A DNA stretch of 64,000 bases from Candidatus Zixiibacteriota bacterium (GTDB lineage: Bacteria > Desulfobacterota > Binatia > UBA9968): positions 1 to 64,000 of the forward strand of contig DATLYW010000045.1 of assembly GCA_035574315.1 (NCBI GenBank), read 5' to 3'. The position numbers and the translations under genes were made by a program. Below are positions 14,001 to 64,000 of this stretch, piece by piece (the first letter of the stretch is position 1; every line of letters begins with the position of its first letter). The notes beneath the pieces were generated by a model, which had not been told where the DNA came from, made no database searches, and worked only from the letters and a program-made list of their open reading frames with translations.

Positions 14001-14473
14001 CGCCTCCTCTGCCGCGCGCGCTACTATCCGGGAACGCCCCGGGGCATCGCGCGCATGTGGTTCAACATGTACGGCGCGACGCCGGGGTCGGTCGAAGGAC
14101 AGGAGTCCCGGCCGGACGGCCTGGCGAAAAGCCCGCGCAGCCCCTATCAGGCGATGTTTCGTTCCGGCTCGCACCAGTCGGCGACGCGAGGCTGGCTGAA
14201 ACCCACCTGGATGACCGACTCGCTCGTGCGCAAGGACCTCTTCGGCCACACGGTCAACCAGGGCTTTCTGCCGGACGTGCACTGCCCGACGGGCGCGCCG
14301 CGCGAGGCGATCGTCAAGATCACCCGAGCGGAGCCGGGCGGCCTCGACGCCAAGGGACTGTGGCGTCCCGCCGCGCTGGGGCTCCGGCCCAGGTACGAGC
14401 GCAAGGCGATGAAAGAATATCTCGCCGGCAAATTCGTCGTGACCGTCAACCCGAAGAAAGGCGGTAAAGAATA

Positions 14474-14474
<1 letters not shown>
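11016..14474 (+). CDS. Type II DMSO-reductase-family molybdenum enzyme, NxrA-like catalytic subunit
   Basis: This 1152-aa protein has a twin-arginine motif at residues 5-10 (SRREFL), so export is likely. The first cluster site is unusual. Where NarG has His-x3-Cys-x3-Cys this protein has Cys64, Asp68 and Cys72 (CAPNDTHNC), then Cys112. [14 protein letters not shown] and MVRKGFKAW nearby match what I remember of Nitrospira/anammox nitrite oxidoreductase NxrA. Asp271 in HTDLPPG is the candidate Mo ligand. With the B, C and D genes that follow it forms a periplasmic alpha-beta-gamma enzyme. It could oxidise nitrite, reduce nitrate or another oxyanion, or hydroxylate a hydrocarbon as ethylbenzene dehydrogenase does. 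Motifs favour the NXR branch but do not settle the substrate. Confidence 0.85.
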
Positions 14475-15601
<1,127 letters not shown>

Positions 15602-26930: not shown

Positions 26931-27932
26931 GTGATCGGTACTCATTTTGAAAGGACTCATGGAACCGTCCGACCCGCTATGCATCCCGGCGCATCTCCGA
27001 CAAAACGGCTCCGGCGGCTGTTGAAGTCCGCCTCGGCCTCGCCGTTTTTCCGGCGAAAGCTTCGCGACCTCCGCGCCCGGGAAATCCGGGACGAGGAAGC
27101 TTTTTCCCGGGACGTCCCCGCGACCCGCCTCGAGGAGCTTGTGGCCGAACGCGCCGCCTCCGGCGATCCCTATTCTCTGCGGTGGTGCGGCAGGGACGCG
27201 CCGGCGGTCGTGCTGCAAACCGAGTACGACGTCGACCCGCCGCTTTACGTCGGCTTCGAGCCCTCGGTTCTGAGGACCTATGCCGGGGCTCTCGCCCGGT
27301 GCTGGTCTCTGCTCGGCGTGACGAAGGGCGACCGGATCGCCGTCTTCGATTACGGCACGAGCCCCCTCTCTTATCTCGCCTCTTCCCTCTTCACGCCCTA
27401 CCTCGGACGCGGCGCCGCGGAAATCCTGGGCTGCCTGCCGATCTGCAACGACGGAACCGCCAACATGGCTCCGCGAGCCGTCGAGATTCTCCGGTTCGTC
27501 CGCCCTCGCGTCATGTTCGTCCGGCCCGAGTGCCTCCATCCGTTGGCGACCGAGATCAGCCGGAAGCGCCTCTCGTACGCGGATTGCTCGAGCGCGCTGG
27601 TCGTGGCGCAGAACGAGGAAATCCTGTCGCGGGAAGATCAAGCCGGATACGAGGATATCTTCGGGGTGCCGGTGTACCGCCTGCTTCGCATCGACATCGC
27701 GATGTTTCTGGCCGTCGAGTGCCCGCATTGCCGCCTGCTCCATTCGCCCCACGACCTTTATTTCCTGGAGAACGGCGGTGAACCGAGCGGCAATTTCAGA
27801 AAGGACCCGCTCCTGGTCACCAACTGGTTCGCGAGAAGCCTGCCGACCCTGCGCTATCTCAGCCGGGCGAGAGGAACGGTGGTCTCCTCCGGCTGCCCGC
27901 TCCGCCCTCGCGACCAGAGGATCGCGGCATGA
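26931..27932 (+). CDS. PaaK-like adenylate-forming-fold protein lacking the ATP loop
   Basis: The 333-aa protein begins directly after the methyltransferase stop (GTG 26931; ATG 26979 is an equally good alternative). RLRRLLKSASASPFFRRKL matches the N-terminal helix of phenylacetate-CoA ligases. The positions that should hold TSGTTGKP read TEYDVDPPL, so the ATP-binding loop appears lost, and the usual YGLTE motif is not found. It is about 100 residues shorter than PaaK. I read it as a non-catalytic or altered-function ligase relative rather than a frameshifted gene, because the frame is open and codon use is like the neighbours. Confidence 0.6.
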   Translation: MIGTHFERTHGTVRPAMHPGASPTKRLRRLLKSASASPFFRRKLRDLRAREIRDEEAFSRDVPATRLEELVAERAASGDPYSLRWCGRDAPAVVLQTEYDVDPPLYVGFEPSVLRTYAGALARCWSLLGVTKGDRIAVFDYGTSPLSYLASSLFTPYLGRGAAEILGCLPICNDGTANMAPRAVEILRFVRPRVMFVRPECLHPLATEISRKRLSYADCSSALVVAQNEEILSREDQAGYEDIFGVPVYRLLRIDIAMFLAVECPHCRLLHSPHDLYFLENGGEPSGNFRKDPLLVTNWFARSLPTLRYLSRARGTVVSSGCPLRPRDQRIAA

Positions 27933-29257
27933 CCCCGGCCGATCGACCACAAGACCGCTTCGACGACATGGATACCTGGCCCCGGGAGCGTCTGCGCCGG
28001 TTTCAGTATCGAAAGCTGAAGCAGGTCGTGGATCGGGCCTACCGGCATCTTCCTTTCTACCGCCGGCGGTTCGACGCGGCGGGCGTGCGCCCGGATCAAA
28101 TAAGGAGCCTCGAAGATTTTACGCGGCTGCCTCTGTTCACCAAGAGGGATGTCCTTCGCGAGATGGAGGAACGAGGAAGCTTCTGCGCCGGCATGGAGCT
28201 CCGGGACCCCGCCGATCCCGCCGCCCTGTGCATGACGTCCGGCACTCTCGGCTCGGCTTTCCTTTGTCTTTCCGGGAAATGGCGCTCCGCTCGCGGCGAC
28301 TCGCTGGCCCGCTATTGCTGGTGGGGAGGACTGCGTCCGGGAATGCGCGCGCTCATGGCCGCACCCGCGTGGCACGGCCTGGCGGTCCAGGAGAGCCGCG
28401 CTCTGGAGCGTCTCGGCGCAACCTGCGTGATCCCGTGGGGAACTTTCCTGCCTCGATACGCGGGAAATTTTCTCGACGCCTTGAGAGATCTCAGGCCGCA
28501 GTTCGTTTCCATGTTCCTTCCGATGCTCTACGCCCTCCTGGCGGAGTGCCGCCGGCGCGAAATCGAGCCGCGGGAGGCCTTCAACGGCGTCCGCCACCTG
28601 GTCCTGGTCGGTGCCCCCATGACGCCGCGCGGCAGGGATCGGCTGAGAGAGGAGCTGGGCGTAGCCGATGTCTTCGAAGGGCTCGGCAATCCCGAGGCGC
28701 TGACCGCGATGGAATGCTCTTTTCACTGCGGGCACCATCTCTTTCTCGACTGTTGTTACGTGGAGGTCGTGGATCCCGAAAACGGCGCCCCCGTGCCTCC
28801 CGGCGCGCGCGGCACCGTGGTCGTCACGTCGCTGATTCCTCACGGCTCCCTTTACATCCGCTACGATTCGGGCGATGTCGGCGAAATTCTTCCCGAACCC
28901 TGTCCGTGCGGGAGAACCTGGCCGCGGCTGGAGGTCTACGACCGCTGGGCCAACGCGGTGCACGTCGCCGGAGCGCGGATCTTTCCCTACGACGTACGCT
29001 TGTGCCTGGACGACGTGCCGGAGCTGATCGGCGTCCCGTTCGCGCTCCTTCGCGGCGACAGGAGCTCGAGATCGCTTCGCCTGGTGATCCAGAAAACCCC
29101 GAACGGAGATTCCGAAAGGCTGGGGAGGCGCCTGCGGGCGCGCATCGAGGAAAGTCTCGGAATCGAAGCCAGCGCAGAATGGACCGAGCGATTGCCGGAG
29201 CGGTGGAAGGGGATCGCAGTGATCGAGGAAAAGGACTGGAGAGGCTCAGATGTCTAA
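27929..29257 (+). CDS. PaaK-like phenylacetate/aryl-CoA ligase family protein
   Basis: The 442-aa protein is full length for PaaK. It has RFQYRKLKQVVDRAYRHLPFYRRR at the N-terminus, a partly kept ATP loop (CMTSGTLGS, where Lys-Pro is missing), FEGLGNPEAL for the usual YGLSE region, and RYDSGDVGEILPEPCPCGRT, a strongly conserved PaaK segment. The ATG overlaps the preceding stop by 4 nt. It may still form an acyl-adenylate, but the loop change makes this uncertain. Phenazine- and siderophore-type pathways use PaaK relatives as adenylating enzymes; the substrate here is unknown. Confidence 0.75.
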   Translation: MTPADRPQDRFDDMDTWPRERLRRFQYRKLKQVVDRAYRHLPFYRRRFDAAGVRPDQIRSLEDFTRLPLFTKRDVLREMEERGSFCAGMELRDPADPAALCMTSGTLGSAFLCLSGKWRSARGDSLARYCWWGGLRPGMRALMAAPAWHGLAVQESRALERLGATCVIPWGTFLPRYAGNFLDALRDLRPQFVSMFLPMLYALLAECRRREIEPREAFNGVRHLVLVGAPMTPRGRDRLREELGVADVFEGLGNPEALTAMECSFHCGHHLFLDCCYVEVVDPENGAPVPPGARGTVVVTSLIPHGSLYIRYDSGDVGEILPEPCPCGRTWPRLEVYDRWANAVHVAGARIFPYDVRLCLDDVPELIGVPFALLRGDRSSRSLRLVIQKTPNGDSERLGRRLRARIEESLGIEASAEWTERLPERWKGIAVIEEKDWRGSDV

Positions 29258-30503
29258 GGGAGCTGTCGGCCTGACGGCGGGGTACTGGCCGGAAAACGTC
29301 TATCGCTACCTCGCAATTCCGGGCATGTCGCTGGACGAGGGCTTGATCGCGCGACCCGCACGGCGACGAGCGGACCATCCGGCGCTGCTGACGGGCGATG
29401 CCGCCGTGACCTACGGGCGGCTGGGCGCCGAAGCGGATCGGATCGGTAGAGCCCTGCTCGCGCTCTCCGACGGCCGGGCTGCCCGAGTCGCTGTGGTGAC
29501 GCGCCGGCCCATGTGCGCCGCCGAGCTCCTCTTCGGCGCGCTGAAGGCCCGCTGGGTCGTTTTCGTCGCGGATCCTTCCCTGCCGGCGCCGGCGCTGGCG
29601 GATCAGTGCCGGCGGTTCGGCGCCGACGCCGTTGTCGCGGGCGAGGCGGACATCGAGCGGAAACTGCAGACGGAGGCTTCGGAACCGCGCGTCATCCTGC
29701 TCGACCGGCTTCTGGAGAAGGAATCGAAGATCTCCCCTCCCCGCGGGCGACAGGATTTCCAGGCGCCTGCCGTCGCCGTGGCGATGGATGACGGCCGCCT
29801 GGTTTACCACAGCCACGCCTCCCTGCTCGCGGGAGCCGTCTCGTGGAGCGCCTTCGTCCAGTTGCGCGCCGAGGACGTGATGCTCGGGCTCCAGCCGTTG
29901 CACCGCTGGGAAGGGCTGTACGCTCTTCTGCCGATCCTGTTTCGCGGGGGAAGCTGCCTGCTCGCCGGGCTGCAGGATCCGGAGGTTACCGCCGAAGCGA
30001 TCGTCAGGCACCGTCCGGTATACGCGATCGTTCCCCGGCTCGAGGCAAGAAAGCTCTATCACCCCGAAAACAAGCCCGTGGTGCAGGCGATCAGGACGGC
30101 GCTTCGCGGACTGTTCGTGTCGGTCAATGAGCCGTTTACGGTTATGGGGCGAGCCAGGCTTCGAAACCTGCTGGAGAAGCCCGCGCTTCTCAGTTACGGC
30201 TCCCAGCAGGCCGGTCCGGTTCTCTCGTCGCATCCCACGTGGTACCTCGACGCCGCCGTGGGCATGCCTCTGACCAACGTCGATGTCTGGCCCTTGAACC
30301 CGTCCAGTGGAAAGCCGCTGCGGGTTCCGTGGGAGACCGTGGAATACGCCGAGGTCGGAGTCAAATCGCCGATGGTCGCGGTCGGGTACGAGACGGCGGA
30401 GGATGCCGAGAAACACGTGCGCGACGGGTGGCTGCGCACGAGGATCGTCGCGACCATGGACCCGAACGGGCTTTTCTACCTCCAGTCCAAGGTCACTGAC
30501 TGA
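29250..30503 (+). CDS. Truncated acyl-CoA synthetase-like protein, probable pseudoenzyme
   Basis: The 417-aa protein follows the ANL fold through YGRLGAEADRIGRALLAL and a GVKSPMVAVGYETAED segment. Where the family has TSGSTGxPKG it shows DGRLVYHSHASLLAG, only the part after the loop. It ends right after the hinge (YLQSKVTD), without the C-terminal domain that carries the catalytic Lys. Both ATP chemistry and the thiolation step should be impaired. The start overlaps the preceding gene by 8 nt and its end overlaps the convergent cytochrome gene by 11 nt. A binding or scaffolding role next to the two PaaK-like proteins is a guess. Confidence 0.65.
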   Translation: MSKGAVGLTAGYWPENVYRYLAIPGMSLDEGLIARPARRRADHPALLTGDAAVTYGRLGAEADRIGRALLALSDGRAARVAVVTRRPMCAAELLFGALKARWVVFVADPSLPAPALADQCRRFGADAVVAGEADIERKLQTEASEPRVILLDRLLEKESKISPPRGRQDFQAPAVAVAMDDGRLVYHSHASLLAGAVSWSAFVQLRAEDVMLGLQPLHRWEGLYALLPILFRGGSCLLAGLQDPEVTAEAIVRHRPVYAIVPRLEARKLYHPENKPVVQAIRTALRGLFVSVNEPFTVMGRARLRNLLEKPALLSYGSQQAGPVLSSHPTWYLDAAVGMPLTNVDVWPLNPSSGKPLRVPWETVEYAEVGVKSPMVAVGYETAEDAEKHVRDGWLRTRIVATMDPNGLFYLQSKVTD

Positions 30504-50446: not shown

Positions 50447-52939
50447 TCACCGGTGCACGGTTCGCCCCGCTCCTCCGACCGCGCCGGTGAACTTTTCCAC
50501 CTGCACGAGATTGCTCACCAGCGGCGCCGTCACCGGGCTCTCGGGATCGGTGAAAAAGATGTTGGGCGTGCAGCCCCAGTCGACCCCGTCGGCGTCCGGC
50601 GTGTACTGGCCGCCGTGGTGGATGACGATCATCCCCGGCATCACGCGCGACGTGACGTACGCGGGCACCACCGCCACGCCCTTGTCGTTGAAGACCCGCA
50701 CCAGCTCTCCGTCCCTGACGCCGCGCGCCTTCGCGTCCGCCGGATTCATCCAGACCGCGTGCCGGTAGCAGTCGCCGCGCAGCAACGGCACGTTCCAGAA
50801 CGTCGTGTGATTGCGGTATCGGGAATAGGCGCTCAGCAGAAACAGTGGAAAGCGCCGGACGTCGGCGTGGTCCATGCCGCGAAACATGGGTTGATAGGCC
50901 GGGATCGGCGGCAGGTCGCGCCAGTCGTTGGGCAGGTTGTCGATCAGCCGGCCGAAATCGTCGACCTGGAGCCTCCCTCGCCTCGATTCGTCCGCGATGG
51001 CGTAGGCGTAGATCTCGATCTTGCCCGTCTGGGTCTGCAGCGGTTTGCCGCGGTCGATGAAGTCGGTGTAGGCGTGATGCGGCTTTTCGTTCAGCTCCTG
51101 GACGTTGATCAGGGCGTTCTGCTTGAACTCTTCCCATTGCGGAGTCTTCAACCCCTGCGCCTGCAGCTCTTCCACCATCCGGTCGTACTCGAACTTGAGG
51201 TAGCGGTCCCAGCCTTCCCACCAGTCGCCGTCCTCGCCGCAGTAGGTGTTGTACAGCTCGCCGATGCCCAGACGACGCGCCAGCTCGGTATAGATCCAGT
51301 GCGCGGGCTTCGCTTCCCCCGGAGGATCGATGACGCCCGGCACGTAGGTGATGTCCACGAAGCCGCCGTAACCCGGGCTCCCTCCGCCCCAGATCTTGCG
51401 GTCCTCGAGCGATTGATCCGCGACCGGCAGGATCACGTCGGCGATCCACAGGGCCGGGCTCATATGGCTGTGCATCCAGACGATGAACTCCATTTTTTCG
51501 GCCGCCTTGATGTGGTCGTTGGTCGAATCGGCCGCGTTGTTGAGCGTCGTCGTGTTGTGCAACCACGTCCCGCCGCCCATCAGCATCTTCGGGTTCGGAA
51601 GCGGCAGCCCTTCGGGCGCGCGCCAGCCGATCATCGCCTTGTATTCCTGCTCGCTCAGCTCGCCGCTGTCGACCTTTTCCTTGAGCAGGACCATCTGCGC
51701 CCACTTGTGGCTGCGATACATCTTGGGCACCCGGACTTTGGGAATTTCCCCGTAAGGAAGCATTCGCGCCGGCTTCATCCTCGTGCCGATCTTGAAGGGC
51801 ACCGATCCGCCCGCGACGCCCCAGTTTCCCATGATCGCCTGCAGCGCGGCCGCAGCCCGCACGGTGTTCTCGCCCCGGCTTTTTCGCGGCGGCCCCCAAC
51901 CCAGCCACAGCCACGTCGGCTTGTGTCGCGCATAGAGGTAGGTGAAGGCGCGAATCGTCTCCGCCGGGACGGCGCAGATCTTTTCCGCCCATTCGGGCGT
52001 CTTCGGCGCGCCGTCGGCTTCCCCCAGCACGTACCTCCTCCACTCCTCAACCCCCTTCGGGTCGACGTACTTTTCCACGTATTCCTGGTCGTACAACTCC
52101 TCGGTGAAGAGAATGTAGGCGACGGCCAGCATCATCGCCGCGTCCGTGCCCGGCTTGATCGGAATCCACTGATCGGCGAGCACCTCTGCGGCAACCGTGT
52201 AGCGCGGCTCGATGCAGACCACCGGCGTGCCGCGCTCCCGCGCCAGCTTGAGGAAATAGGCCACCTGATGGCCGGGACCGAAGTGATTGATCGTCGGCTC
52301 GAAGCCCCAGAGCACGATCAACTTGCTGTTGAGGAGCACGTCGGCGAGATCGTTGGAGGTCTCGTTGTACGACCATCCCGGAACCCCGCCCATCAGATGC
52401 ATGGCCAGCCGGCCCGGATCCATCGAGCACCAGCCCCATCCCTCCACGCCCGCTCCCCACAGGCCGAAAATCCGCTCGAGATTGGGGCTGGGCTGGTACG
52501 CGGTAGTGATCGAATAAGGACCGTACTTGTCGACGATCTCTTCCATCTTTCGGGCCACCAGGTCGAGGGCCTCGTCCCACGAGATCCGTTCGTAGCGCCC
52601 CTCCATCCGCTTGCTGCCCTCCACCCGCCTGAGCGGGTAGAGAATCCGGTCGGGGGCATAGGCGAGCTTGTGAAACACCCACGCCATCGGACAGCCGCGC
52701 AGCTGCAACCGGTTCTTGATGTAGTCCGTTTCGGTGGCGACGTTGTCTTCGCGCGCCACTCCCGGGAAATAATGATCGTCGGGTTCGATCGCGGTGATCC
52801 TGCCGTCCTTGCGCCTGATCTTCAGCACGCACTGGCCCGCGCCGCAGTTGATGACACAGCCGGAATAGACCGTCTCCTCCCCGGCGTGCAGCGCCTTCAG
52901 CCTCCCGACGATGGTATCTCGCGCTTTGCCGACTTCCAT
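50447..52939 (-). CDS. AthL-like (transhydroxylase-type) molybdenum enzyme with N-terminal cluster, copy 1
   Basis: The 830-aa DMSO-reductase-family protein has a cluster motif Cys28, Cys32, Cys37, Cys83 (GCVINCGAGQC, LRGCP). ADQWIPIKPGTDAAMMLAVA, GVEEWRRYVLGEADGAPKTPEWAEK and ARGVRDGELVRVFNDKG correspond to segments I recall from pyrogallol-phloroglucinol transhydroxylase AthL. AthL itself lacks the N-terminal cluster, which this protein has. DMSO reductase and acetylene hydratase are alternative relatives. A ferredoxin-like partner gene is just upstream on the same strand. It has no twin-arginine leader, so it is cytoplasmic. AGGAGG precedes ATG 52939. Expected chemistry is hydroxyl transfer or redox on an aromatic ring. 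Confidence 0.8.
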   Translation of the reverse strand: MEVGKARDTIVGRLKALHAGEETVYSGCVINCGAGQCVLKIRRKDGRITAIEPDDHYFPGVAREDNVATETDYIKNRLQLRGCPMAWVFHKLAYAPDRILYPLRRVEGSKRMEGRYERISWDEALDLVARKMEEIVDKYGPYSITTAYQPSPNLERIFGLWGAGVEGWGWCSMDPGRLAMHLMGGVPGWSYNETSNDLADVLLNSKLIVLWGFEPTINHFGPGHQVAYFLKLARERGTPVVCIEPRYTVAAEVLADQWIPIKPGTDAAMMLAVAYILFTEELYDQEYVEKYVDPKGVEEWRRYVLGEADGAPKTPEWAEKICAVPAETIRAFTYLYARHKPTWLWLGWGPPRKSRGENTVRAAAALQAIMGNWGVAGGSVPFKIGTRMKPARMLPYGEIPKVRVPKMYRSHKWAQMVLLKEKVDSGELSEQEYKAMIGWRAPEGLPLPNPKMLMGGGTWLHNTTTLNNAADSTNDHIKAAEKMEFIVWMHSHMSPALWIADVILPVADQSLEDRKIWGGGSPGYGGFVDITYVPGVIDPPGEAKPAHWIYTELARRLGIGELYNTYCGEDGDWWEGWDRYLKFEYDRMVEELQAQGLKTPQWEEFKQNALINVQELNEKPHHAYTDFIDRGKPLQTQTGKIEIYAYAIADESRRGRLQVDDFGRLIDNLPNDWRDLPPIPAYQPMFRGMDHADVRRFPLFLLSAYSRYRNHTTFWNVPLLRGDCYRHAVWMNPADAKARGVRDGELVRVFNDKGVAVVPAYVTSRVMPGMIVIHHGGQYTPDADGVDWGCTPNIFFTDPESPVTAPLVSNLVQVEKFTGAVGGAGRTVHR

Positions 52940-53060: not shown

Positions 53061-53816
53061 CTACTCGTCGTCACGGGTCGCAACCATGAGCTCCTCCGCG
53101 CTTCTCGCCTTGAGCACCAGCCGCTCCCTTCCCCGGATGCCCGACGCGGGGCGGGTCACCGCATCCCTGTCGTCGAACGTGGGCGGCAGATCGGCCGGCG
53201 CGTACGGGCCGCGCTGCCGCCAGAGGTCGAGCGCCCTGTCGGCGTCGTAAGGCAGCAACGGCTTCTTGGGGTCGCGCGGCTTGAACACGACCGCCGCCCG
53301 CGTGATTTTCCCGTCGGGAAGCCCGTCGAGCGTGTCGAGATCGCCGTATTTCTTTCTCAGCTCCTCGATGGGGCCGAAATCGAGGGCCCGCAGCGAGCAG
53401 GAGTGCACGCAAATCGGCAGTTCCCCCTGTTCCAGCCGATCGATGCACATCGTGCATTTGTGCGCTTTCTCGCCTTCTCGATCGCTGGCATAGACGATCG
53501 AGCCGTACGGACACGCATCCCAGCATCGACGCTCCCCTTCGCAACGTTCCTCGTCGATCAGCACGGCGCCGTACTTCTCCTCCTTGAAGATCGCCTCGTG
53601 CGGGCAGGCCTCGACGCAGGCGGGCTTCTCGCAGTGATAGCAGTTGACGGCGAGCAGCCCGAGGCGGACGTCGGGAAAAGCGCCTTGCTCCCATTGATAG
53701 ACCCGCATGTATTTCAGCGGCCCCGGAGGGATGTCGTACCAGCCTTTGCACGCGATGCTGCACGCGCGGCATCCCGTGCAGCGGCTCTGATCAAAGAAAA
53801 ATCCGTATTGGGCCAC
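53061..53816 (-). CDS. Four-cluster ferredoxin subunit (DmsB/AthS-like)
   Basis: The 251-aa protein has four groups of cysteines: CTGCRACSIAC (from residue 13), CYHCEKPACVEACP, CEGERRCWDACP, and CTMC with CVHSC. It would hold four [4Fe-4S] clusters, as the DmsB type does. The segment GAVLIDEERC followed by CPYGS and KCTMC also recalls AthS, the small transhydroxylase subunit. AGGAG precedes ATG 53816. It lies directly upstream of the AthL-like gene at 50447-52939 and is its most likely partner. The second AthL-like enzyme (58320) has no such neighbour, so this subunit may serve both. Confidence 0.88.
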   Translation of the reverse strand: MAQYGFFFDQSRCTGCRACSIACKGWYDIPPGPLKYMRVYQWEQGAFPDVRLGLLAVNCYHCEKPACVEACPHEAIFKEEKYGAVLIDEERCEGERRCWDACPYGSIVYASDREGEKAHKCTMCIDRLEQGELPICVHSCSLRALDFGPIEELRKKYGDLDTLDGLPDGKITRAAVVFKPRDPKKPLLPYDADRALDLWRQRGPYAPADLPPTFDDRDAVTRPASGIRGRERLVLKARSAEELMVATRDDE

Positions 53817-54366: not shown

Positions 54367-57201
54367 CTAGCAAGCGAGCCTCCCGTCGACGGCGCAACGT
54401 TTCCCGGCGCGGCGGCCTTCCGCTCTTTTCATGTCGACCCGGGTGTCTCGGTCGCTGATCCCGGGCGAGCACGCAAAGGGATCGGGCCGGATATGCCCGT
54501 AACCGCCGGCCAGCTCGATGGGATTCATCGGAGAGGCCATGACGCTCTTGAAGTGGCGCCAGCCCTCGAACTGGTAGTTTTCCCATCCGTGATAGATGAC
54601 CATCTGGCCGGGACGCACCGCCGGGGAAACCGCCGCGCGAACGCGGAAGTCCGCGAGGTCGTTGTACACCTCCATCGGATCTCCGTCGCCCATGCCGCGT
54701 CTTGCGGCGTCCCGCGGATTGACGAACGCCACCGGCTCGCCCCGCTGCAACCGGAGAAGGATCGCATCGTCGATCCAGTCGCTGTGCATGCTCCAGCGGG
54801 TGTGCCCTCCCGTCAGCTGGAGCGGATAATCCCCGCCCGCCTTGGGACAGTCCTTGTGCGTCGGCAGGTGCTCGTCGAGCTCCAGGTACCAGTCATGATC
54901 GATGTAGAACTGGATCCGGCGCGTGAGCGTGGGGTAAGGCTCTTTCTTTTCCGTGTGCTTCGTCAGGGGCACGAGCGGCTCTCCCTGTCGAAGGTCACAG
55001 GCGTTCCCCATTGACCGCAGCGCCGTACCGAGAGCCGTGTAAGCCGCGATCCCCCGCTCCCTGAACTCTTCCCACGCCAGCTCCTCGCGGTTCGCGGAGT
55101 TCAGGAAGGCGTCGCGCGCCAACTGCTCCTCGTCCTCCTCGCCGTAAAGCCCGCACGTCACGCGTTCTCCCAATCCTTCGAAACACCTCTCCCTTCCCGC
55201 ACCGTCACGGTAAGCCGATATCCCTCGTTCTGCCGCCCGCTCCTCCAGCTTCCTGGCCAGCCGCACGAAGATTCTCCAGTCGCTCGCCGACTCGTAAAGC
55301 GGTTCGACCGCCTCGTCAGCAAGCTGCAGGAACGGGGACTGCGTGCAGCCGAAGAGCGACATGGAGACGCGCTCGTACCAGCCGCACGCCGGCAGAACGT
55401 AGTCCGAGTAAAGGGCCGTGGTGCTCATGCGCCAGTCCATGGTCACGATCAGCCGGAGCGACCCCAGCAGCTCCCGGAGCAACCGCCGTGTGGCCCGGGC
55501 GCGGCGGAAGACGTTGCCTCCAACCTGAAACAGCGCCCTGGGGCGCGCCGGCGGCCCCTTGGCGGCGGGCTGCCAGGCGTTCAGCAGAGCCTCGTCGAGG
55601 TAGCTCTGAAGCGGCCGGCAGGCCGGAGCTTGCCGCCCGTCCAGATCCAACAGGCCGCCGCGAAGGAAATGATCCAGCCCCGCGAGCGGAACCGCGCCGC
55701 AGGCCACGCTTTCCCTCGCATACTCGGAGAGGATCATCTCGGCCGTACAGCCGTCTTCTTTCCAGCCGGCGTAACGCGGATCCGCCCCGGCCGCGGAAAC
55801 CAGGATCTGCTCTCCGCCGCGCTCCAGCGCTCCCACCGAGGTTTCGGGGGCGAGAATCGGAAGAGCGCTGAAGCTTGCGCCTCTGCGTCCCATGTGACCG
55901 CAGAGCGCAAAGACCAGAAGGATGGCGCGCTCGATGAGATCGCCGTGGTGGAACTTTCCCCAGTTCGTGGTGGCCACGTTCACGACCCCTCCGGCCGACG
56001 CGATGTCTCTCGCCAGCGCCCGGATCAGCGGCGCGGCGACGCCGGTAACGGCGGACGCCTTCTCGGGGGAAAAACGCGCGTCGAGCCTTTCCCGCAGCAG
56101 CGCGAAAACGGGCCGGACCCGGATCCGGCCGCAAAGCGCTCGAAGCTCGCATTCGCCGTCCAGCGCCGGCACCAGGCCGCCGAGCGCGAGGCTCTTGCGC
56201 GGCGCCTGGACGATCTCGCCCGTGCCGAGATCGCGGACGTAAAACGCGTCCTCGCGCCCGCCGACCTTCAAGTCCTTCTCCCGCAGGAGCCTGCCGTTAT
56301 CCATGCGCACCAGAAACGGCAGATCGGTCTGCTCGCGTACGAACTCCTCCCGGTAGAGCTTCTCTCCGATGATGACCTGCGCCAGGCCGAGAGCGAGGGC
56401 CGCATCCGTGCCGATGTTCACGGGCACCCAGAGGTCCCCGTGTCGCGCCGAGGCGTTGTAGTCGGGCGAGATGACCACCACGCGGGTGCCGTTGTAGCGC
56501 GCCTCGGCGATGTAGTGGAAGTTGGCGACGTTGGTGCAGGCGGGGTTCCCGCCCCAGATCAGGATCAGGTCGGCGTAAAACCAGTGATCGGCCGAGTCGC
56601 CAAGAACGACTTTCCCCAGCGTAACGGCGACTCCCTGATGGTCGTCGCCGATCTCCGTGTTCACGCTCGGAAGCGGCGCGCCCAGCGCCTCGAAGAAAGC
56701 GCCGGCCCCGGCGCCCTGGGTCTCCTGCCCGTGAACTCGCGTTCCGCCCCCGTGCATGATCGCCTGCGGGCCCTCGGAGACCAGAATGTCGATCAAGGTA
56801 TCGGCGATCTCCGTCAGCGCCTGATCCCAGCTCAGGCGCTGCCACCGCCCTGCGCCGCGCTCGCCGGCGCGCTTCAAGGGATATTTGACACGGGTCGGGT
56901 CGGCCATCCTCTGCGCGTAGCATGCTCCTTGCGCGCAGCCGCGGGGATTGGGATCCGGAACGCGCGAGTCGTTCGGCGGCGGATAGTTCCCGACCTGCTC
57001 CTCCCGCAGCACAATGCCGTCCTTGACGTAGAGATTGAAATTGCACGATCGCTGGTACCCGCAGTTGGTCGCATGCGAGCCCTTGACGACCCGATCCCAC
57101 CCGCCGGCGCTCTTGCCCAGCGCGCGCAAGCTGTAGCCGCCGTCGCCGCAGCGAGACGGGAACTGTCGGAGACCTTCCAGATCGAGTCGCAGAATGCTCA
57201 T
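54367..57201 (-). CDS. Type II DMSO-reductase-family molybdenum enzyme (EbdA/SerA-like), copy 2
   Basis: The 944-aa protein has a first-cluster motif His43, Cys47, Cys53, Cys89 (SHATNCGYQRSC, NPRGC). His as first ligand marks type II enzymes, but the Cys-Cys gap is five residues instead of three. TEIGDDHQGVAVTLG holds the candidate Mo ligand Asp186, as in selenate/chlorate reductase, DMS dehydrogenase and ethylbenzene dehydrogenase. No twin-arginine leader is seen, so it may be cytoplasmic. No gamma heme subunit is adjacent. A hydroxylating dehydrogenase or a reductase are both possible. A paralogue runs off the window at 62471. Confidence 0.8.
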   Translation of the reverse strand: MSILRLDLEGLRQFPSRCGDGGYSLRALGKSAGGWDRVVKGSHATNCGYQRSCNFNLYVKDGIVLREEQVGNYPPPNDSRVPDPNPRGCAQGACYAQRMADPTRVKYPLKRAGERGAGRWQRLSWDQALTEIADTLIDILVSEGPQAIMHGGGTRVHGQETQGAGAGAFFEALGAPLPSVNTEIGDDHQGVAVTLGKVVLGDSADHWFYADLILIWGGNPACTNVANFHYIAEARYNGTRVVVISPDYNASARHGDLWVPVNIGTDAALALGLAQVIIGEKLYREEFVREQTDLPFLVRMDNGRLLREKDLKVGGREDAFYVRDLGTGEIVQAPRKSLALGGLVPALDGECELRALCGRIRVRPVFALLRERLDARFSPEKASAVTGVAAPLIRALARDIASAGGVVNVATTNWGKFHHGDLIERAILLVFALCGHMGRRGASFSALPILAPETSVGALERGGEQILVSAAGADPRYAGWKEDGCTAEMILSEYARESVACGAVPLAGLDHFLRGGLLDLDGRQAPACRPLQSYLDEALLNAWQPAAKGPPARPRALFQVGGNVFRRARATRRLLRELLGSLRLIVTMDWRMSTTALYSDYVLPACGWYERVSMSLFGCTQSPFLQLADEAVEPLYESASDWRIFVRLARKLEERAAERGISAYRDGAGRERCFEGLGERVTCGLYGEEDEEQLARDAFLNSANREELAWEEFRERGIAAYTALGTALRSMGNACDLRQGEPLVPLTKHTEKKEPYPTLTRRIQFYIDHDWYLELDEHLPTHKDCPKAGGDYPLQLTGGHTRWSMHSDWIDDAILLRLQRGEPVAFVNPRDAARRGMGDGDPMEVYNDLADFRVRAAVSPAVRPGQMVIYHGWENYQFEGWRHFKSVMASPMNPIELAGGYGHIRPDPFACSPGISDRDTRVDMKRAEGRRAGKRCAVDGRLAC

Positions 57202-57276: not shown

Positions 57277-58317
57277 CTACTTGCCAATGAACTCCCTCGC
57301 GTCCTTGCGCCCGTCTTTTCCCCACAGCCGGTCGAAAAACCCGCTGGCTTCCATCTCGTCCAGATAGCGGCGATCGAACAGCTCCTCCGGCTTGACGTTC
57401 TTCGCCCGCGCATCGATCTGCGAGATCTCGTCGAGAGTCGCCTGGAGCGCTTCGACCCTGATCTCCATTCTCGGTTCGAGGGCCCGGATCTCGGCGTTGT
57501 AAGCGGCGTCGAGAATTTTTCTGTCGTCGACCCGCAGCTGTCTCGCCAGCACCCGATAGGTGAATTCCCGGTCGGTATGGAGGATCTTGGCCGCTTCCGC
57601 CATCGCGCGCATGAACGCGCCGACGGCCTGCGGCCGCCGGTTGATGATCGACCGGCGGGTTCCGAAGGTCGTCGCCGCGTAGGGAATGCGAAGCTCCGGC
57701 CCGTAGACTACATAGTGGAAACCCTGCGCGATCGCTTTCGCGTCTCCTGGCGCCGTCATGGTCGCCGCGTGGATGGCCCCTTTGATCAGGGCCGCGAGGG
57801 TCTCGAATTCTCCGCCGGTCTGGATGAACGTGATGTCGCGGTCGGGGTTCAGACCGGCGCGCCTGAGCGCCTGGATGGTAAAATAGTGCGTGTTGCTGCC
57901 GATCCGGGTAACGCCGATCTTCTTCCCCTTGAGATCGGTCGGCTTCTTGATCGCTCCGCCTGCCAGGATGCTCTGCGTCATGATGTTCTTGACGTTGCCG
58001 ATGAAAACCAGATCGGTGGCGCCTTGCACGTAAGCCCGCACGTTGCCGACGCCGCCGGTGAGGCACACTTCGGCGTCGCCTCCCAGCATGGCCGCGGTCA
58101 CCATTCCGGAAGAGGCGATGTAGACGAGGCGAAAGTCGAGATTGTGCTTCTGGAACAGCCCGGCTTCCTGCGCGATCCAGGGCATCGACTGAGACATCAC
58201 CCGGGCGGAGTAGATGCCGACCAGCCGCTCGGCGGCCGGAAGACCGCCGGAGGGAGCGCCCGAAAACAACAGGACGAGCACTCCGAGCCGCCCGATGACC
58301 CTTTTCGCGTGTCGCAT
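57277..58317 (-). CDS. NMT1/SsuA-like periplasmic binding protein
   Basis: The 346-aa protein has a signal peptide (hydrophobic core about 10-22) and the NMT1-like fold: YSARVMSQSMPWIAQEAGLF, GGDAEVCLTGGVGNVRAYVQGATD and LKGKKIGVTRIGSNTHYFTIQALRRAG. ATG 58317 is 2 nt after the stop of the AthL-like gene, so it is translationally coupled to a molybdenum enzyme gene. No permease or ATPase is adjacent. It could deliver the pathway substrate to a transporter encoded elsewhere, or act as a substrate sensor. It is distinct from the relative at 36596. Confidence 0.85.
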   Translation of the reverse strand: MRHAKRVIGRLGVLVLLFSGAPSGGLPAAERLVGIYSARVMSQSMPWIAQEAGLFQKHNLDFRLVYIASSGMVTAAMLGGDAEVCLTGGVGNVRAYVQGATDLVFIGNVKNIMTQSILAGGAIKKPTDLKGKKIGVTRIGSNTHYFTIQALRRAGLNPDRDITFIQTGGEFETLAALIKGAIHAATMTAPGDAKAIAQGFHYVVYGPELRIPYAATTFGTRRSIINRRPQAVGAFMRAMAEAAKILHTDREFTYRVLARQLRVDDRKILDAAYNAEIRALEPRMEIRVEALQATLDEISQIDARAKNVKPEELFDRRYLDEMEASGFFDRLWGKDGRKDAREFIGK

Positions 58318-58319
58318 CG

Positions 58320-60917
58320 TCAAAACCCCCCTTCCGGGCGCCGGGAGCCCTCGCAGCGCTCGACCTCGACCAGGTTGGTGACCGCCGGCGCCGTAACCGG
58401 ACTTTCGGGATCCGTGAGGAAAACGTTCGGCGTGCAGCCGCGGTCGACCCCGTTTTCGTCCGGCTCGTACCACCCCCCGTGATGGATGACGGCCAGGCCC
58501 GGCAGGAGGCGGGCGGTGACGTAGGCAGGGATCACCGCGACCCCTTTGTCGTTGAAGACCCGCACCGTGTCCCCGTCCTTGATTCCCCGCTTCCGCGCGT
58601 CCGCCGCGCTCAGCCAGATTGCGTGGCGGTAGCAGTCGCCTCTGAGCCACGGCACGTTCCAAAACGTGCTGTGGATCCGGTAGCGGGGATAGGACGTGAG
58701 GAGCATCAGCGGAAAACGCTTCACGTCCCGGTGATCCATCCCCCGGTACGGCGGCTGGTAGGTTGCGAAAGGCGCCAGATCGCGCCAGTCGTTGGGCAGG
58801 TTGTCGATCAGCCGGCCGTGGGCGTCGAAATGGAGCCTGCCCCGCTGCGCTTCGTCGGCGACGATGTCGCTGTAGAGCTCGATCTTGCCGCTGCGAGTCT
58901 TGAGCGGCTTTCCACCCTCGATGAATTCCTTGTAGCCGTGCCACGGCTCGTCGAAGAACTCGTCGACGTTGATGAGGCAGTCGCGCGTGAATTTCTTCCA
59001 CGTCGGCGCCTTCACCCCTTCCTTCTCCAGCCTTTCCCTGAGGTCGCGGTATTCGTCCTCCAGGTACTCTTCCCAGCACGCTTCCCAGCGCTCGCCGCTG
59101 TAGTACTGGTTGTACCGCTCGCCGATTCCCAACCGCCGCGCCAGCTCCGAGTACACCCACTCGTCGTTTCTCGCTTCGCCGGGCGGCGGCACCACGCCGG
59201 GAAGAAACGTGTAGTTGGCGAAGCCGCCGTAGCCGCCGCTGTTGATGTATCGGGTCTCCAGCGTCGTGTCGGCGAGGGGAAGGAGCACGTCCGCGTAGCG
59301 CGCCATCGGCCCCATCTGCGTTCCCGCCCAGACGACGAACTCCATCCGCTCGAGCGCTTTCAGCTGGTCGTTGGTGGAGTCGGCGTTGTTGTTGAGCGTG
59401 TTGGTCCCGGCCCCGTAGTAGGTGCCCCACATGAGCATCTTCGGGTTGGGCAGCGCCTCCTCGTTCCCGACGGTCCCGTTCTCCTCCACCGGGCTGGCGA
59501 CTCCTTGCCCGCCGCCGGTGCCTCCGGCCCATACCCGGGTCACCGGCCGTCCCGGCAACGCGCCGGCGCGCCAGCCGATGATCCGCTTGTATTCCTCGAC
59601 GCTCATCTCTCCGGCGCGGACCTTGTCCAGCAGGAGCACCATCTGCGCCCATTTGTGGCTGCGGTACATCTTCGGCACCATGCGCTTCGGGATCTCGCCG
59701 TACGGGAGCATCACGGGGGGCTTGTGGCGAAAGCGCAGGTGAAGCGGCACCGAGCCTCCGGGAACGCCCCAGTATCCCATGATCGCCTGCAGGCTCGCCG
59801 CTCCGCGTGCGGTGTTCTCGCCCCGGCTTTTCCGATCGATGCCGTAGCCCTTCCACAACCACGTCGGCTTTTTCCGCGCGTAGAGCCGGGCGAAGCCGCG
59901 AATGGTTTCCGCCGGAACGGCGCAGATCTTCTCCGCCCATTCCGGGGTTTTGTCGACGCCGTCGGTCTCGCCGAGGACGTGGCCCCGCCATTTCTCGAAC
60001 CCGGCGACGTCCACGTACTTCTCGACGAACTCCCGGTTGTAGAGTTTTTCCTTGATCAGAACGTTGGCGACCGCCAGCATCATCGCAGCGTCGGTGCCGG
60101 GCTTGATCGGGATCCACTGATCGGCCAGGACCTCGGCCGCCACCGTGTAGCGCGGATCGATGCAGATCACCGGCGTGCCCCGCTCCCTGGCCATGCGAAT
60201 GTAGTAGGCAAGCTGGTGGCCGGGACCGAAATGCGTGATCGTCGGCTCGAAGCCCCAGAGGACGATCATCTTGGTGTGGATCAGGAAATCCGCCATGTCG
60301 TTGGAGCCTTCGCCGTAGGACCAGCCCGGCACCCCGGCCATGAGATGCATCGCCAGCCGCCCGGGATCCATCGAGCACCAGCCCCAGCCCTCCATGCCCG
60401 CGCCCCAGAGACCGAACAACCGCTCCAGGCGCGCGTTGGGCGCGTACGGCGTCACGATCGAGTACGGACCGTAGCGCTCCACGATCTCCTTCATCTTTCC
60501 GGCAACTGTGTCCAGCGCCTCGTCCCACGAGATCCGTTCGAATCTTCCTTCGCCTCGCCGGGCCCCGCTCGCCCGCTTCATCGGGTAGAGCAGGCGGTCC
60601 GGCGACGACGCCAGCTTGTGAAAGACCCAGCCGACGGGGCAGCCGCGCAGCTGCAGCCGGTTCTTGATCAAGTCCAGATCCGAAACCACCGCGTCCTCGC
60701 GCCCCACGCCCCGGTTGTAGTGGTCGTCGGGCTCGATGGCCGTGACCGCACCGTTTTTCCGGCGCACGCGAAGGACGCACTGGCTGCCGCCGCAGTTGAT
60801 CCGGCAGCCGGTGTAGACGACCTCCTCCCCCGCGTGAAGCCGCTTCAACCGGCGCACCACCGCCGCCCGCCGATTCTTCCGGGTCCGGGTGCTTATTCGC
60901 GCGCTCGTCGATGTCAC
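58320..60917 (-). CDS. AthL-like (transhydroxylase-type) molybdenum enzyme with N-terminal cluster, copy 2
   Basis: Start GTG 60917 is preferred because GGAGGA sits six bases upstream; TTG 60923 is the alternative. The 865-aa protein parallels the 50447 gene throughout. It has the cluster motif GCRINCGGSQC with LRGCP, HVLGETDGVDKTPEWAEK, and a C-terminal NDKGVAVIPAYVTARLLPG. It has an extra loop of about 25 Gly/Val/Glu-rich residues (RVWAGGTGGGQGVASP region) absent from copy 1. The short N-terminal extension is Arg-rich without a twin-arginine consensus. Its Fe-S partner may be the protein encoded at 53061. The substrate may differ from copy 1. Confidence 0.8.
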   Translation of the reverse strand: MTSTSARISTRTRKNRRAAVVRRLKRLHAGEEVVYTGCRINCGGSQCVLRVRRKNGAVTAIEPDDHYNRGVGREDAVVSDLDLIKNRLQLRGCPVGWVFHKLASSPDRLLYPMKRASGARRGEGRFERISWDEALDTVAGKMKEIVERYGPYSIVTPYAPNARLERLFGLWGAGMEGWGWCSMDPGRLAMHLMAGVPGWSYGEGSNDMADFLIHTKMIVLWGFEPTITHFGPGHQLAYYIRMARERGTPVICIDPRYTVAAEVLADQWIPIKPGTDAAMMLAVANVLIKEKLYNREFVEKYVDVAGFEKWRGHVLGETDGVDKTPEWAEKICAVPAETIRGFARLYARKKPTWLWKGYGIDRKSRGENTARGAASLQAIMGYWGVPGGSVPLHLRFRHKPPVMLPYGEIPKRMVPKMYRSHKWAQMVLLLDKVRAGEMSVEEYKRIIGWRAGALPGRPVTRVWAGGTGGGQGVASPVEENGTVGNEEALPNPKMLMWGTYYGAGTNTLNNNADSTNDQLKALERMEFVVWAGTQMGPMARYADVLLPLADTTLETRYINSGGYGGFANYTFLPGVVPPPGEARNDEWVYSELARRLGIGERYNQYYSGERWEACWEEYLEDEYRDLRERLEKEGVKAPTWKKFTRDCLINVDEFFDEPWHGYKEFIEGGKPLKTRSGKIELYSDIVADEAQRGRLHFDAHGRLIDNLPNDWRDLAPFATYQPPYRGMDHRDVKRFPLMLLTSYPRYRIHSTFWNVPWLRGDCYRHAIWLSAADARKRGIKDGDTVRVFNDKGVAVIPAYVTARLLPGLAVIHHGGWYEPDENGVDRGCTPNVFLTDPESPVTAPAVTNLVEVERCEGSRRPEGGF

Positions 60918-61055
60918 TGGCAATCCTCCGGGACAGACTCACCCTTCCCCGCCCGGACCGGCGGTTTGCTTTCTCGTCGGAACCCTCTCGCCCCGCGCGA
61001 ACGATCCCGCTCCGGCGTTCAGCCGGCCGCGCGCGCCGGATCGCCGCCGGCGCGC

Positions 61056-61265
61056 TTAAGTGCGCCAGGTCTCCGAAGCCCTGGCCTTGTCGTAACCCGG
61101 CCCTCTTCCCTCGGCGACTTCGGGCGCGTACTTGTCGGGATCGCGCCGGAAGGCCGTGCGACACTGCGCCGTGCAGAAGTAAAAGATCTTGCCCCAGTAG
61201 TTGACCTTACCGCCGGGCGGCGCCTTCTCGTCGACCTCCATCTTGCACACGGGATCCGTCGCCAT
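61056..61265 (-). CDS. YHS-domain mini-protein, copy 2
   Basis: The 69-aa protein begins MATDPVCKMEVDEKAPPGGK and continues IFYFCTAQCRTAFRRDPDKY, the same YHS domain and charged tail as at 54010. ATG 61265 has GGAGGG upstream. About half of the residues match copy 1. Its place, just upstream of the second AthL-like enzyme, repeats the arrangement of the first module. Confidence 0.85.
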   Translation of the reverse strand: MATDPVCKMEVDEKAPPGGKVNYWGKIFYFCTAQCRTAFRRDPDKYAPEVAEGRGPGYDKARASETWRT

Positions 61266-61361: not shown

Positions 61362-62441
61362 TCACGCTCCCCCGGCCGGCGGCGCCTTGAAGCTTCCGGA
61401 AGTGAACCGGAGCAGGAGGCGGTCGATGTTCTCGCCGTATCCCCGCCGATCGCCTTCCGAGACCATCGCACGCTCCAGCCATTCCTCGCAGTGGGTGCAG
61501 CCGTCGCAACCGAGGCGGCAATCCTTGTTCTTGAAAAACTCGAGGAAACCCTCCAGCCGCCGGTTGTCCAGCCCGACCGGAAACTCGCCGAACGGGTCGA
61601 CGCCGTCGAAGCCGAGGATCAGATCGTTGAGCTTCCCGCGATAGCTCCTGGCGGCGTAAGCGGCCGCCGCCTGCAGGATCCATTCGCGGCCCTTTTCGCG
61701 CCCCGCCAGCTTGAAGCGCGCAAACCCCATCGCTTCGTACTTCGAGAGATCCTCCGGGCGGATCCAGGGCGCTTTGACCATCTCCACCGGCCGCATCGAT
61801 TTCACCTGGATGCACTTCGCCAGCGAGTAGTCGAGATAACAGCCCCGGTCGAGACACTCCGCGGAGTGGCTCACGAAGTTCGCGTGGTAGTCGCGCAGCG
61901 GGCAATGGACGAGGCAGCCCAGGTTGACGATGGGCACGAGATCGCACCTCAGCTTCCGCCTCAACGTTCGCAGGAGGCGGAAGTCGCGGTTGAGGTACTC
62001 CGCGAGATAGATCGAATCGACGCCGAGGTCCTCATAGAACAACGCCTTGTCCACGCTGTCGACGTTGACGATGCTCGACAGGCTGACGCGGAGCTCCGGA
62101 TAGCGGCGCTTCACCATCTCGATGACGTAGGGGTTGGTCGCCACGACGCCTTCGGCGCCGCAATCGGCGAGCCATCCCAGCCGCTGCGCCAGCCACTTCT
62201 GCCCTTCCGCGGTGAACTCCCGGTTGGCCCCGCACGAGCTGTTGAGCGTGTAATAGAAGCCGATGCCCCGGGCGCGCGCCTGCGCGATGTGCTCCTCGAC
62301 CCCGACAAGATCGGCGGCGGGAAGCCACTTTTTCGCCCTCGCGCCGTGCTCTTCGGGCAGCGAGCCGTAGATCGCGCTCACCGGAATGCCGGCGAGACCG
62401 TCGAGAAGCTCCGTCTCGAACGTGGTGGGAACGACCAGCAT
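61362..62441 (-). CDS. U32-family (UbiU-like) Fe-S protein
   Basis: The 359-aa protein belongs to the peptidase-U32 family. It has YYTLNSSCGANREF and TNPYVIEMVKRRYPELRVSLSSI, and the cluster-type cysteines Cys176, Cys180 (NLGCLVHCPL), Cys201 and Cys210 (CYLDYSLAKC). The C-terminus adds four more (Cys308, 312, 315, 318), which suggests a second cluster. Several U32 proteins are O2-independent hydroxylation factors (UbiU/UbiV in quinone synthesis, RlhA and TrhP in RNA modification). In this island a hydroxylation role on the pathway substrate is plausible. ATG 62441 is 30 nt after the type II enzyme gene. No UbiV partner is seen. Confidence 0.8.
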   Translation of the reverse strand: MLVVPTTFETELLDGLAGIPVSAIYGSLPEEHGARAKKWLPAADLVGVEEHIAQARARGIGFYYTLNSSCGANREFTAEGQKWLAQRLGWLADCGAEGVVATNPYVIEMVKRRYPELRVSLSSIVNVDSVDKALFYEDLGVDSIYLAEYLNRDFRLLRTLRRKLRCDLVPIVNLGCLVHCPLRDYHANFVSHSAECLDRGCYLDYSLAKCIQVKSMRPVEMVKAPWIRPEDLSKYEAMGFARFKLAGREKGREWILQAAAAYAARSYRGKLNDLILGFDGVDPFGEFPVGLDNRRLEGFLEFFKNKDCRLGCDGCTHCEEWLERAMVSEGDRRGYGENIDRLLLRFTSGSFKAPPAGGA

Positions 62442-62470: not shown

Positions 62471-64000
62471 TCAGACCTTTCGCACCTCCACGCGCGTGCC
62501 CCGGTCGCTGAAGCCCGGGTAGTTGCTCATCGTTATCGGCCGGATCTGGAAATAGTCCCCGGCGAGCTCGATCGGATTCATCGGCGAGGGCATCACGCTC
62601 TTGAAATGGCGCCAGCCGTCGAACTGATAGTTCTCCCAGGCGTGGTAGATGATCACCTGGCCCGGCCTGACCGCGGGCGACACCCCCGCCTGGACGCGGA
62701 AGGACGCGACGTCGTTCGCCACCTCCACGGTGTCGCCGTCCTCGATGCCCCGGGCGCGCGCGTCCTTTGCGCTGAGGAAGATCAACGGCCCGCCGCGCTG
62801 GAGCTGAAGCAGCAGACTCTCGTCGATCTGATCGCTGTGGATGCTCCAGCGGTGATGGCCGCCGGTGATCTTCAGCGGGTAGTCGCCGCCGGCGGCCGGC
62901 GGATCCTTGTGCACGGGGAGATCCTCGCCCAGCTCGCGGAACCATTCATGGTCGATGAGAAACTGGATGCGGCGCGTGAGCGTCGGATAGGGATCCTTGC
63001 GCTCGGTGTGCCAGGTGAGCGGCACGACGGTTTCTCCCGGGACGATGTCGCAGGTGTTGCCGATGGAGCGCATGCCGGTGCCCACCCCCGTGTAGGCGGC
63101 GATGCCCCGTTCCTTGAACTCTTCCCAGTCCATCTGCTCGACGTTCGAGGCGTTGAGGAAAGCGTCGCGGGCGATGCCTTCCTCGTCGTCTTCGTTGTAA
63201 AGCCCGCCGAAGGTTACCCGGTCCTCCAGCCCGGCGAAGCGAAATTCCGCTCCGCTCGCGCTCTTGTAGCCTTCCACTCCTCTTTCCGCCGCGCGTTCTT
63301 CGATCTTTCTCGCCAGCAGGCAGAACATCTTCCACTCGCTCATCGAATCGTAGAGCGGCGGGGTCGCCTGGTTGACCACGTGGACGAAAGGCTGAACCGG
63401 CATGCCCATGAGGAAGGTCGACGTCTTCTCGTACCAGCTGCAGGCGGGAAGCACGAGGTCGGCGTACATGGCGGTGGCGTTCCAGCGCCAGTCGATCGAT
63501 ATCAGGAGGCGAAGCTTGGGAAGGAATTTTTCGATCAACAGGTTCGTCGCCCTGGAGCGCCTGAGGAAATTCCCGCCCAAGGCGAACATGACCCGGGGCG
63601 CGGTTTGCGGTCCGGGGGAGAGAAACTGCCATTTCTTGTCGAAGGCCTCGCGGACATACTCCTTGATCGGCCGCTTGAGGTGAGGATCCCACTCCGGGTG
63701 CTCGGCGCAAAAATCGAGCACTCCGCCGTGGATGTAGTACATGAGGGAAGTCGGCGTGATGCCGCCCGACGCGAAGGCCTGATGCACGTATTCGTAGAGG
63801 ATCATCTCGTCGGTAAATCCCTCTTCGCGCCACTGGGCGAAGCGCGGATCACCGCCCGCGGCCGACAGGATGATCTGGTCGCCGCGTTTCTCCAGCCCGC
63901 CGATGGAGGTGTCGAGCCCCATCATCGGAAACGCGCTGAAGGTCGCCCCCTTCCGCCCCATGTGGCCGCAGAGCGCGAAAACGAGCAGAATCGCGCGCTC
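62471..64000 (-). CDS. Type II molybdenum enzyme, C-terminal half (cut by the window edge)
   Basis: The open frame continues to the window edge; the 5' end (first cluster and Mo ligand) is missing. The 509 codons present parallel the gene at 54367-57201 along their whole length: GHMGRKGATFSAFPMM, LISIDWRWNATAMYADLVLPACSWYEK, AWENYQFDGWRHFKSVMPSPMNPIELAG. The type II assignment is therefore by paralogy to that gene and not from the cluster motif. It heads the visible part of the minus-strand island and precedes the U32 gene. No partner subunit can be assigned. Confidence 0.8.
   Translation of the reverse strand, partial: ERAILLVFALCGHMGRKGATFSAFPMMGLDTSIGGLEKRGDQIILSAAGGDPRFAQWREEGFTDEMILYEYVHQAFASGGITPTSLMYYIHGGVLDFCAEHPEWDPHLKRPIKEYVREAFDKKWQFLSPGPQTAPRVMFALGGNFLRRSRATNLLIEKFLPKLRLLISIDWRWNATAMYADLVLPACSWYEKTSTFLMGMPVQPFVHVVNQATPPLYDSMSEWKMFCLLARKIEERAAERGVEGYKSASGAEFRFAGLEDRVTFGGLYNEDDEEGIARDAFLNASNVEQMDWEEFKERGIAAYTGVGTGMRSIGNTCDIVPGETVVPLTWHTERKDPYPTLTRRIQFLIDHEWFRELGEDLPVHKDPPAAGGDYPLKITGGHHRWSIHSDQIDESLLLQLQRGGPLIFLSAKDARARGIEDGDTVEVANDVASFRVQAGVSPAVRPGQVIIYHAWENYQFDGWRHFKSVMPSPMNPIELAGDYFQIRPITMSNYPGFSDRGTRVEVRKV

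Follow-up and report, generated by a model that had tools for sequence, protein, structure and literature searches.

An uncharacterised U32 protein subfamily with two conserved cysteine sets, encoded beside ethylbenzene-dehydrogenase-like molybdenum enzymes in Binatia

Characterised U32 hydroxylases

Known members of the U32 family add hydroxyl groups without oxygen. The characterised hydroxylases have roles in ubiquinone synthesis and RNA modification; UbiU and UbiV draw oxygen from prephenate, the RNA-modifying enzymes depend on prephenate, and the part that the Fe-S cluster plays in oxygen-independent C-O bond formation is an open question (PMC11574389). The cysteine motif is CX6CX16CX38C in UbiU and CXnCX12CX3C in UbiV (PMC6747719), and hydroxylation by TrhP requires E162, C170 and C177 (PMC6599085). 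PMC6747719 summarises the groups PepU32#1 to #6 of Kimura et al. 2017; in that summary no group is credited with eight conserved cysteines, and those of PepU32#6 are said to be poorly conserved. The proteins studied here were compared with these groups by description.

The U32 gene and its operon

The window analysed is a stretch of 64,000 nucleotides from a Binatia genome (4.26 Mb, 98.6% complete). An earlier note on it had placed a UbiU-like U32 protein at 61362–62441, inside an anaerobic aromatic-degradation island. The reading frame (minus strand, 359 amino acids) was confirmed, and the protein matched PF01136 (Peptidase_U32) with 43.2 bits against a gathering cut-off of 22.4. The gene is the sole U32 match in its genome. 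No NCBIfam family matched the protein, and the TrhP model gave an E-value of 0.001 with 18 bits against a cut-off of 534. A (beta/alpha) barrel at about residues 1–268, with a WxRPED motif at residues 226–231, is followed by a C-terminal extension, and the AlphaFold2 model of the protein has a mean pLDDT of 93.1. The closest solved structure, and the single U32 one to turn up, is 5D88 (Mk0906, a U32 protein of Methanopyrus kandleri), with Z 19.8 over 226 residues and the next row about 7 units lower, a comparison that covers the barrel and hardly tests the C-terminal 90 residues (270–359). The other PDB rows were generic barrels and were set aside. The subfamily profile also matched 5D88 in sequence (1e-21); however, 5D88 lacks C176 and C180 in the aligned stretch, and the match shows nothing in its 254-residue chain that corresponds to the C-terminal cysteine segment.

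In the order of transcription on the contig (C45), an EbdB-like ferredoxin-type subunit and a NarJ/TorD-type chaperone (PF02613) come first, followed on the minus strand by an ethylbenzene-dehydrogenase-like alpha subunit of DMSO-reductase type II (62471–65272, 933 amino acids, of which 62471–64000 lies in the window) and, directly downstream of it, by the U32 gene. Then follow, again on the minus strand, a small YHS-domain protein (61056–61265), a DmsA/TMAO-reductase-like molybdopterin oxidoreductase (58320–60923), an NMT1/SsuA-like substrate-binding protein (57277–58272), a second ethylbenzene-dehydrogenase-like alpha subunit (54367–57201), a DmsB-like ferredoxin-type subunit (53061–53816) and a second DmsA-like molybdopterin oxidoreductase (50447–52939). 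The U32 gene thus lies between two molybdenum enzymes, as had been claimed, with the YHS gene in between on the downstream side; a YHS gene is also part of the operons of loci L033, L035 and L036. No RNA was found by Rfam in the 45–64 kb part of the window.

Both alpha subunits resemble the ethylbenzene dehydrogenase and type II DMSO-reductase enzymes of the TIGR03479 family, with the ethylbenzene dehydrogenase alpha subunit 2IVF as best PDB match (5e-194 for the upstream and 4e-175 for the second alpha). In contrast to these systems, the second alpha stays under the curated TIGR03479 cut-off (831 vs 985 bits), and a simple pattern check saw no Tat motif in the alpha subunits. We know of no ethylbenzene dehydrogenase or type II DMSO-reductase system that includes a U32 gene. 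Elsewhere in the window (11700–15601), a ferredoxin-type beta subunit adjoins one more type II DMSO-reductase-like alpha, the third and a more divergent one (264 bits).

The description of the surroundings as an anaerobic aromatic-degradation island held in part. Fitting genes are present, namely two UbiD genes and an acyl-CoA dehydrogenase at 3221–4372 (NCBIfam glutaryl-CoA dehydrogenase, 483.6 bits vs cut-off 470), together with 4-hydroxybenzoyl-CoA-reductase-like genes that score below the cut-off. However, the search for BamA in the genome gave crotonase-type matches only, far under the cut-off, leaving a classical benzoyl-CoA route without support. As judged from gene content, the aromatic label is plausible.

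A subfamily apart from canonical U32 proteins

Scanning named genomes gave 380 relatives of the window protein, and the 80 best were retained. Among these, subfamily members came from Binatia, Syntrophaceae, Desulfocapsaceae, Omnitrophota, Elusimicrobiota, Armatimonadota, Clostridia, several archaea and others. In a maximum-likelihood tree of 57 rows (IQ-TREE), 37 subfamily rows were parted from 20 canonical U32 proteins (UbiU, RlhA and TrhP of E. coli and 17 further proteins) by a branch with 100/99 support. UbiV was omitted from this tree owing to its long branch, and a FastTree of 112 rows with UbiV included gave the same split. By its sequence, the window protein belongs to an uncharacterised U32 subfamily spanning many phyla and standing apart from canonical U32 proteins.

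The label "UbiU-like" was consequently dropped. The window protein shares with UbiU and UbiV the U32 domain and an expected cysteine-bound [4Fe-4S] cluster, but its cysteines follow C-x105-C-x3-C-x29-C with an additional C-terminal set, unlike either of the motifs given above; UbiU E161 aligns to V169, and UbiU C232 has no counterpart. Membership of the UbiU group was rejected, as the protein lies on the opposite side of the 100/99 branch and has C176-x3-C180 in place of the four-cysteine motif. The genome, with its one U32 match, gave no UbiV or UbiU partner.

With TrhP and RlhA, the protein has the U32 barrel in common, and the aligned Glu (or Gln) is kept by most of the wider subfamily. It differs from them by its separate branch, the missing CX6C spacing, the loss of the Glu in the Binatia clade and its catabolic operon. 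Assignment to TrhP/RlhA was rejected on tree placement and on residues, E162, C170 and C177 of TrhP being matched by V169 and C176, followed by C-x3-C instead of C-x6-C. The outcome named beforehand as speaking against a catabolic role, a grouping with TrhP or RlhA near translation genes, did not occur. A function in RNA hydroxylation like that of TrhP and RlhA is very improbable: family resemblance and the fact that the gene is the sole U32 of its genome would fit such a role, but the subfamily is separate, several genomes hold a canonical U32 protein besides one or more subfamily members, the genome has no convincing CmoB (24 bits, partial), and the gene lies in a catabolic operon and occurs patchily, in 20 of 148 genomes of the class Binatia.

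Some genomes carry further copies. In the Aminicenantes genome of locus L062 (G076), 11 U32 matches were found, three of which fall in a stretch of about 5 kb. In L032, a shortened U32 gene (8635–8874, 79 amino acids) has lost most of the barrel, probably by an internal deletion, but retains its start and the segment with the C-terminal cysteines. A second, distant U32 copy of genome G005 (L063, 656–1807, on the contig shared with L031) adjoins genes named by eye as aldehyde:ferredoxin-oxidoreductase-like and TPP-enzyme-like.

Two conserved cysteine sets

The presence of a second set of four cysteines at the C-terminus, already pointed out in the earlier note, was borne out across the subfamily. 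In the C-terminal set C308-x3-C312-x2-C315-x2-C318, the last three cysteines are found in 59/59 aligned members and C308 in 58/59; such near-invariance argues against chance. The exact C-x3-C-x2-C-x2-C spacing occurs in just 33 of the 59, although the aligned cysteines are nearly invariant, and the spacing alone is thus a poor search pattern. In the barrel, C176, C180 and C210 are present in all 59 aligned members and C70 in 54. In UbiU and the others, CX6C is found with additional cysteines (PMC6747719). The close clade has C201, whereas in clade C and others the cysteine is at position 206 instead, so that the fourth ligand in the barrel may have shifted.

With two near-invariant cysteine sets in a U32 protein, the proposal of an Fe-S protein is probably correct, and two [4Fe-4S] clusters are likely in the subfamily. 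The first would be bound in the barrel by C176, C180 and C210, with C70 or C201 as the fourth ligand, and the second in the C-terminal segment by C308, C312, C315 and C318. The C-terminal cluster might pass electrons to or from the barrel cluster.

Loss of the active-site glutamate in the Binatia clade

At the position of TrhP E162, glutamate (47) or glutamine (14) is found in 61 of the 67 rows that belong to the subfamily but not to the Binatia clade. Within the Binatia clade, all 21 members have V, A or S, the window protein V169. The alignment at this site is backed by a common strand pattern (MEIEIFVHG in TrhP, CELELIANH in L059). Every member of the Binatia clade has R87, R183, E195, E249 and W254, which are less common elsewhere in the subfamily. 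As the essential glutamate is lost in this clade, activity is not simply transferable from the known U32 hydroxylases. The natural loss in a single clade provides a ready-made test of the role of this residue.

For the same reason, the proposal of the earlier note that the protein hydroxylates a catabolic intermediate is weakened; it is possible, and would need a changed active site. A more specific form of it is somewhat doubtful: a two-cluster U32 protein with a rebuilt active site would partner water-using molybdenum hydroxylases in the breakdown of hydrocarbons or aromatics and carry out an O2-free hydroxylation or a similar oxidation there. If true, this would be the first catabolic U32 enzyme. 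The glutamate loss, with both cysteine sets fully kept, would also suit a protein that is inactive as a hydroxylase and serves the operon as an electron carrier or sensor. This is improbable, however, as the strongly conserved barrel residues Y64, N67, W226, R228, D231, K244 and R248 suggest a working pocket.

Co-inheritance with molybdenum enzymes

Within the window's own family, close alpha genes were found in 8/8 genomes with the U32 gene and in 0/17 without it (naive Fisher p 9e-7, kinship ignored), and genus g5 of this family comprises one genome with both genes and three with neither. Across the class, an alpha match at 1e-150 or better was present in 17 of the 20 carriers vs 13 of the 128 non-carriers (naive p 1e-11, kinship ignored). 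The close loci comprise the window and its seven closest relatives, of which the eighth locus, L038, was left out of the upstream comparison because its upstream gene calls are broken. A check for conserved neighbours, as suggested beforehand, found alpha directly upstream of U32 in 7/7 readable close loci, window included; the two genes overlap by 1–4 bases in six of these loci and are 29 bases apart in the window. In the seven close loci other than the window, an alpha gene also lies directly downstream of U32.

More distant Binatia copies vary in their surroundings. An alpha gene neighbours a distant U32 copy in another orientation in genomes G043 and G148. In several clade C loci (e.g. L044, L045 and L052), AMP-ligase and PaaK-like genes stand between U32 and an alpha gene a few genes away. 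No molybdenum genes directly adjoin U32 in clade B (L040–L043), where ligase and PaaK-like genes adjoin it without alpha at hand (L040, L043). At 26931–30503 of the window, about 31 kb from the U32 gene, there is a split set of AMP-ligase and PaaK-like genes of the type found next to U32 in clades B and C.

As the U32 gene is inherited together with hydrocarbon-hydroxylase-like molybdenum enzymes, the protein probably acts in Binatia in the same anaerobic pathway as these ethylbenzene-dehydrogenase-like enzymes, a placement with good support. The main rival to a hydroxylation or redox role is that of a maturation or assembly factor for the adjoining molybdenum enzymes (cluster insertion, or change of a residue or cofactor), without a free metabolite. 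The position directly behind alpha, with overlapping frames in most close loci, the perfect co-occurrence in the own family, the loss of the usual hydroxylase glutamate and a MoaA gene near one clade C U32 copy are consistent with it. However, the operon already has a gene for a NarJ/TorD-type chaperone, and subfamily members outside Binatia are mostly without molybdenum neighbours. The existence of 13 Binatia genomes with related alpha genes, several of them with at least six copies, but without U32 further weakens the idea. To our knowledge, the well-studied relatives EbdA, PcrA and NarG also mature without a U32 protein. A maturation role is hence rather unlikely.

The reading that is favoured, tentatively, is that of a two-cluster U32 protein within the molybdenum-enzyme pathway, most likely catalysing the O2-free hydroxylation of a small molecule in that pathway, or a redox step akin to it. 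Against it stand the loss of the glutamate, the clade B loci without directly adjoining molybdenum genes and the 13 Binatia genomes that have related alpha genes but lack this U32. Building on the subfamily, the cysteine sets, the operon, the co-inheritance and the glutamate loss as read from sequence, we infer clusters, an electron path and a hydroxylation by which the protein would hydroxylate, or otherwise oxidise or reduce, this molecule without oxygen. Known U32 hydroxylases obtain the oxygen from prephenate; the window protein, having lost the glutamate, may use another source. The branch carries two near-invariant cysteine sets across bacteria and archaea and is co-inherited with molybdenum hydroxylases in one lineage, and as a putative two-cluster branch it gives the search for U32 chemistry in catabolism a defined starting point.

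Gene contexts elsewhere in the subfamily

In 28 of 74 loci, a radical-SAM group, some members with B12-binding domains, is encoded at most two genes from U32 on the same strand; the group, obtained by single-linkage clustering of neighbours, is rough and takes in MoaA-like proteins. In two distant phyla (L075, 6241–7359; L095, 8889–9992), the immediate neighbour of U32 is a fused DAHP synthase-chorismate mutase, which would supply prephenate; chorismate mutase is also present in the genome of the window. UbiE adjoins U32 in L053, UbiA and UbiD are close by in L055, and LuxC/LuxE adjoin it in L059. The genes after L044 encode, in order, a CopD-like membrane protein, identified through its counterpart in L045, and then MqnE, MqnA (probable), MqnC and MqnD (probable); MqnE and MqnC score above the cut-off, and MqnA and MqnD were assigned by eye only. 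Judged by gene neighbourhood, the contexts of these single loci suit small-molecule chemistry.

Some of them also point towards quinones. A U32 protein that modifies a quinone like UbiU/UbiV could furnish the molybdenum enzymes with a special electron acceptor, and the MqnE and MqnC genes near the clade C copy L044, the adjoining UbiE in L053 and UbiA and UbiD near L055 would agree with this. For the window protein it is nevertheless unlikely, since its genome lacks a UbiV or UbiU partner, an occurrence in 20/148 genomes is ill-suited to a core quinone step, and the window operon showed no quinone genes. The clusters of L053 and L055 themselves are candidates for an undescribed oxygen-independent quinone route. 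Each of the two holds a second, short U32 protein, and the L055 cluster also a Gfo/Idh/MocA oxidoreductase.
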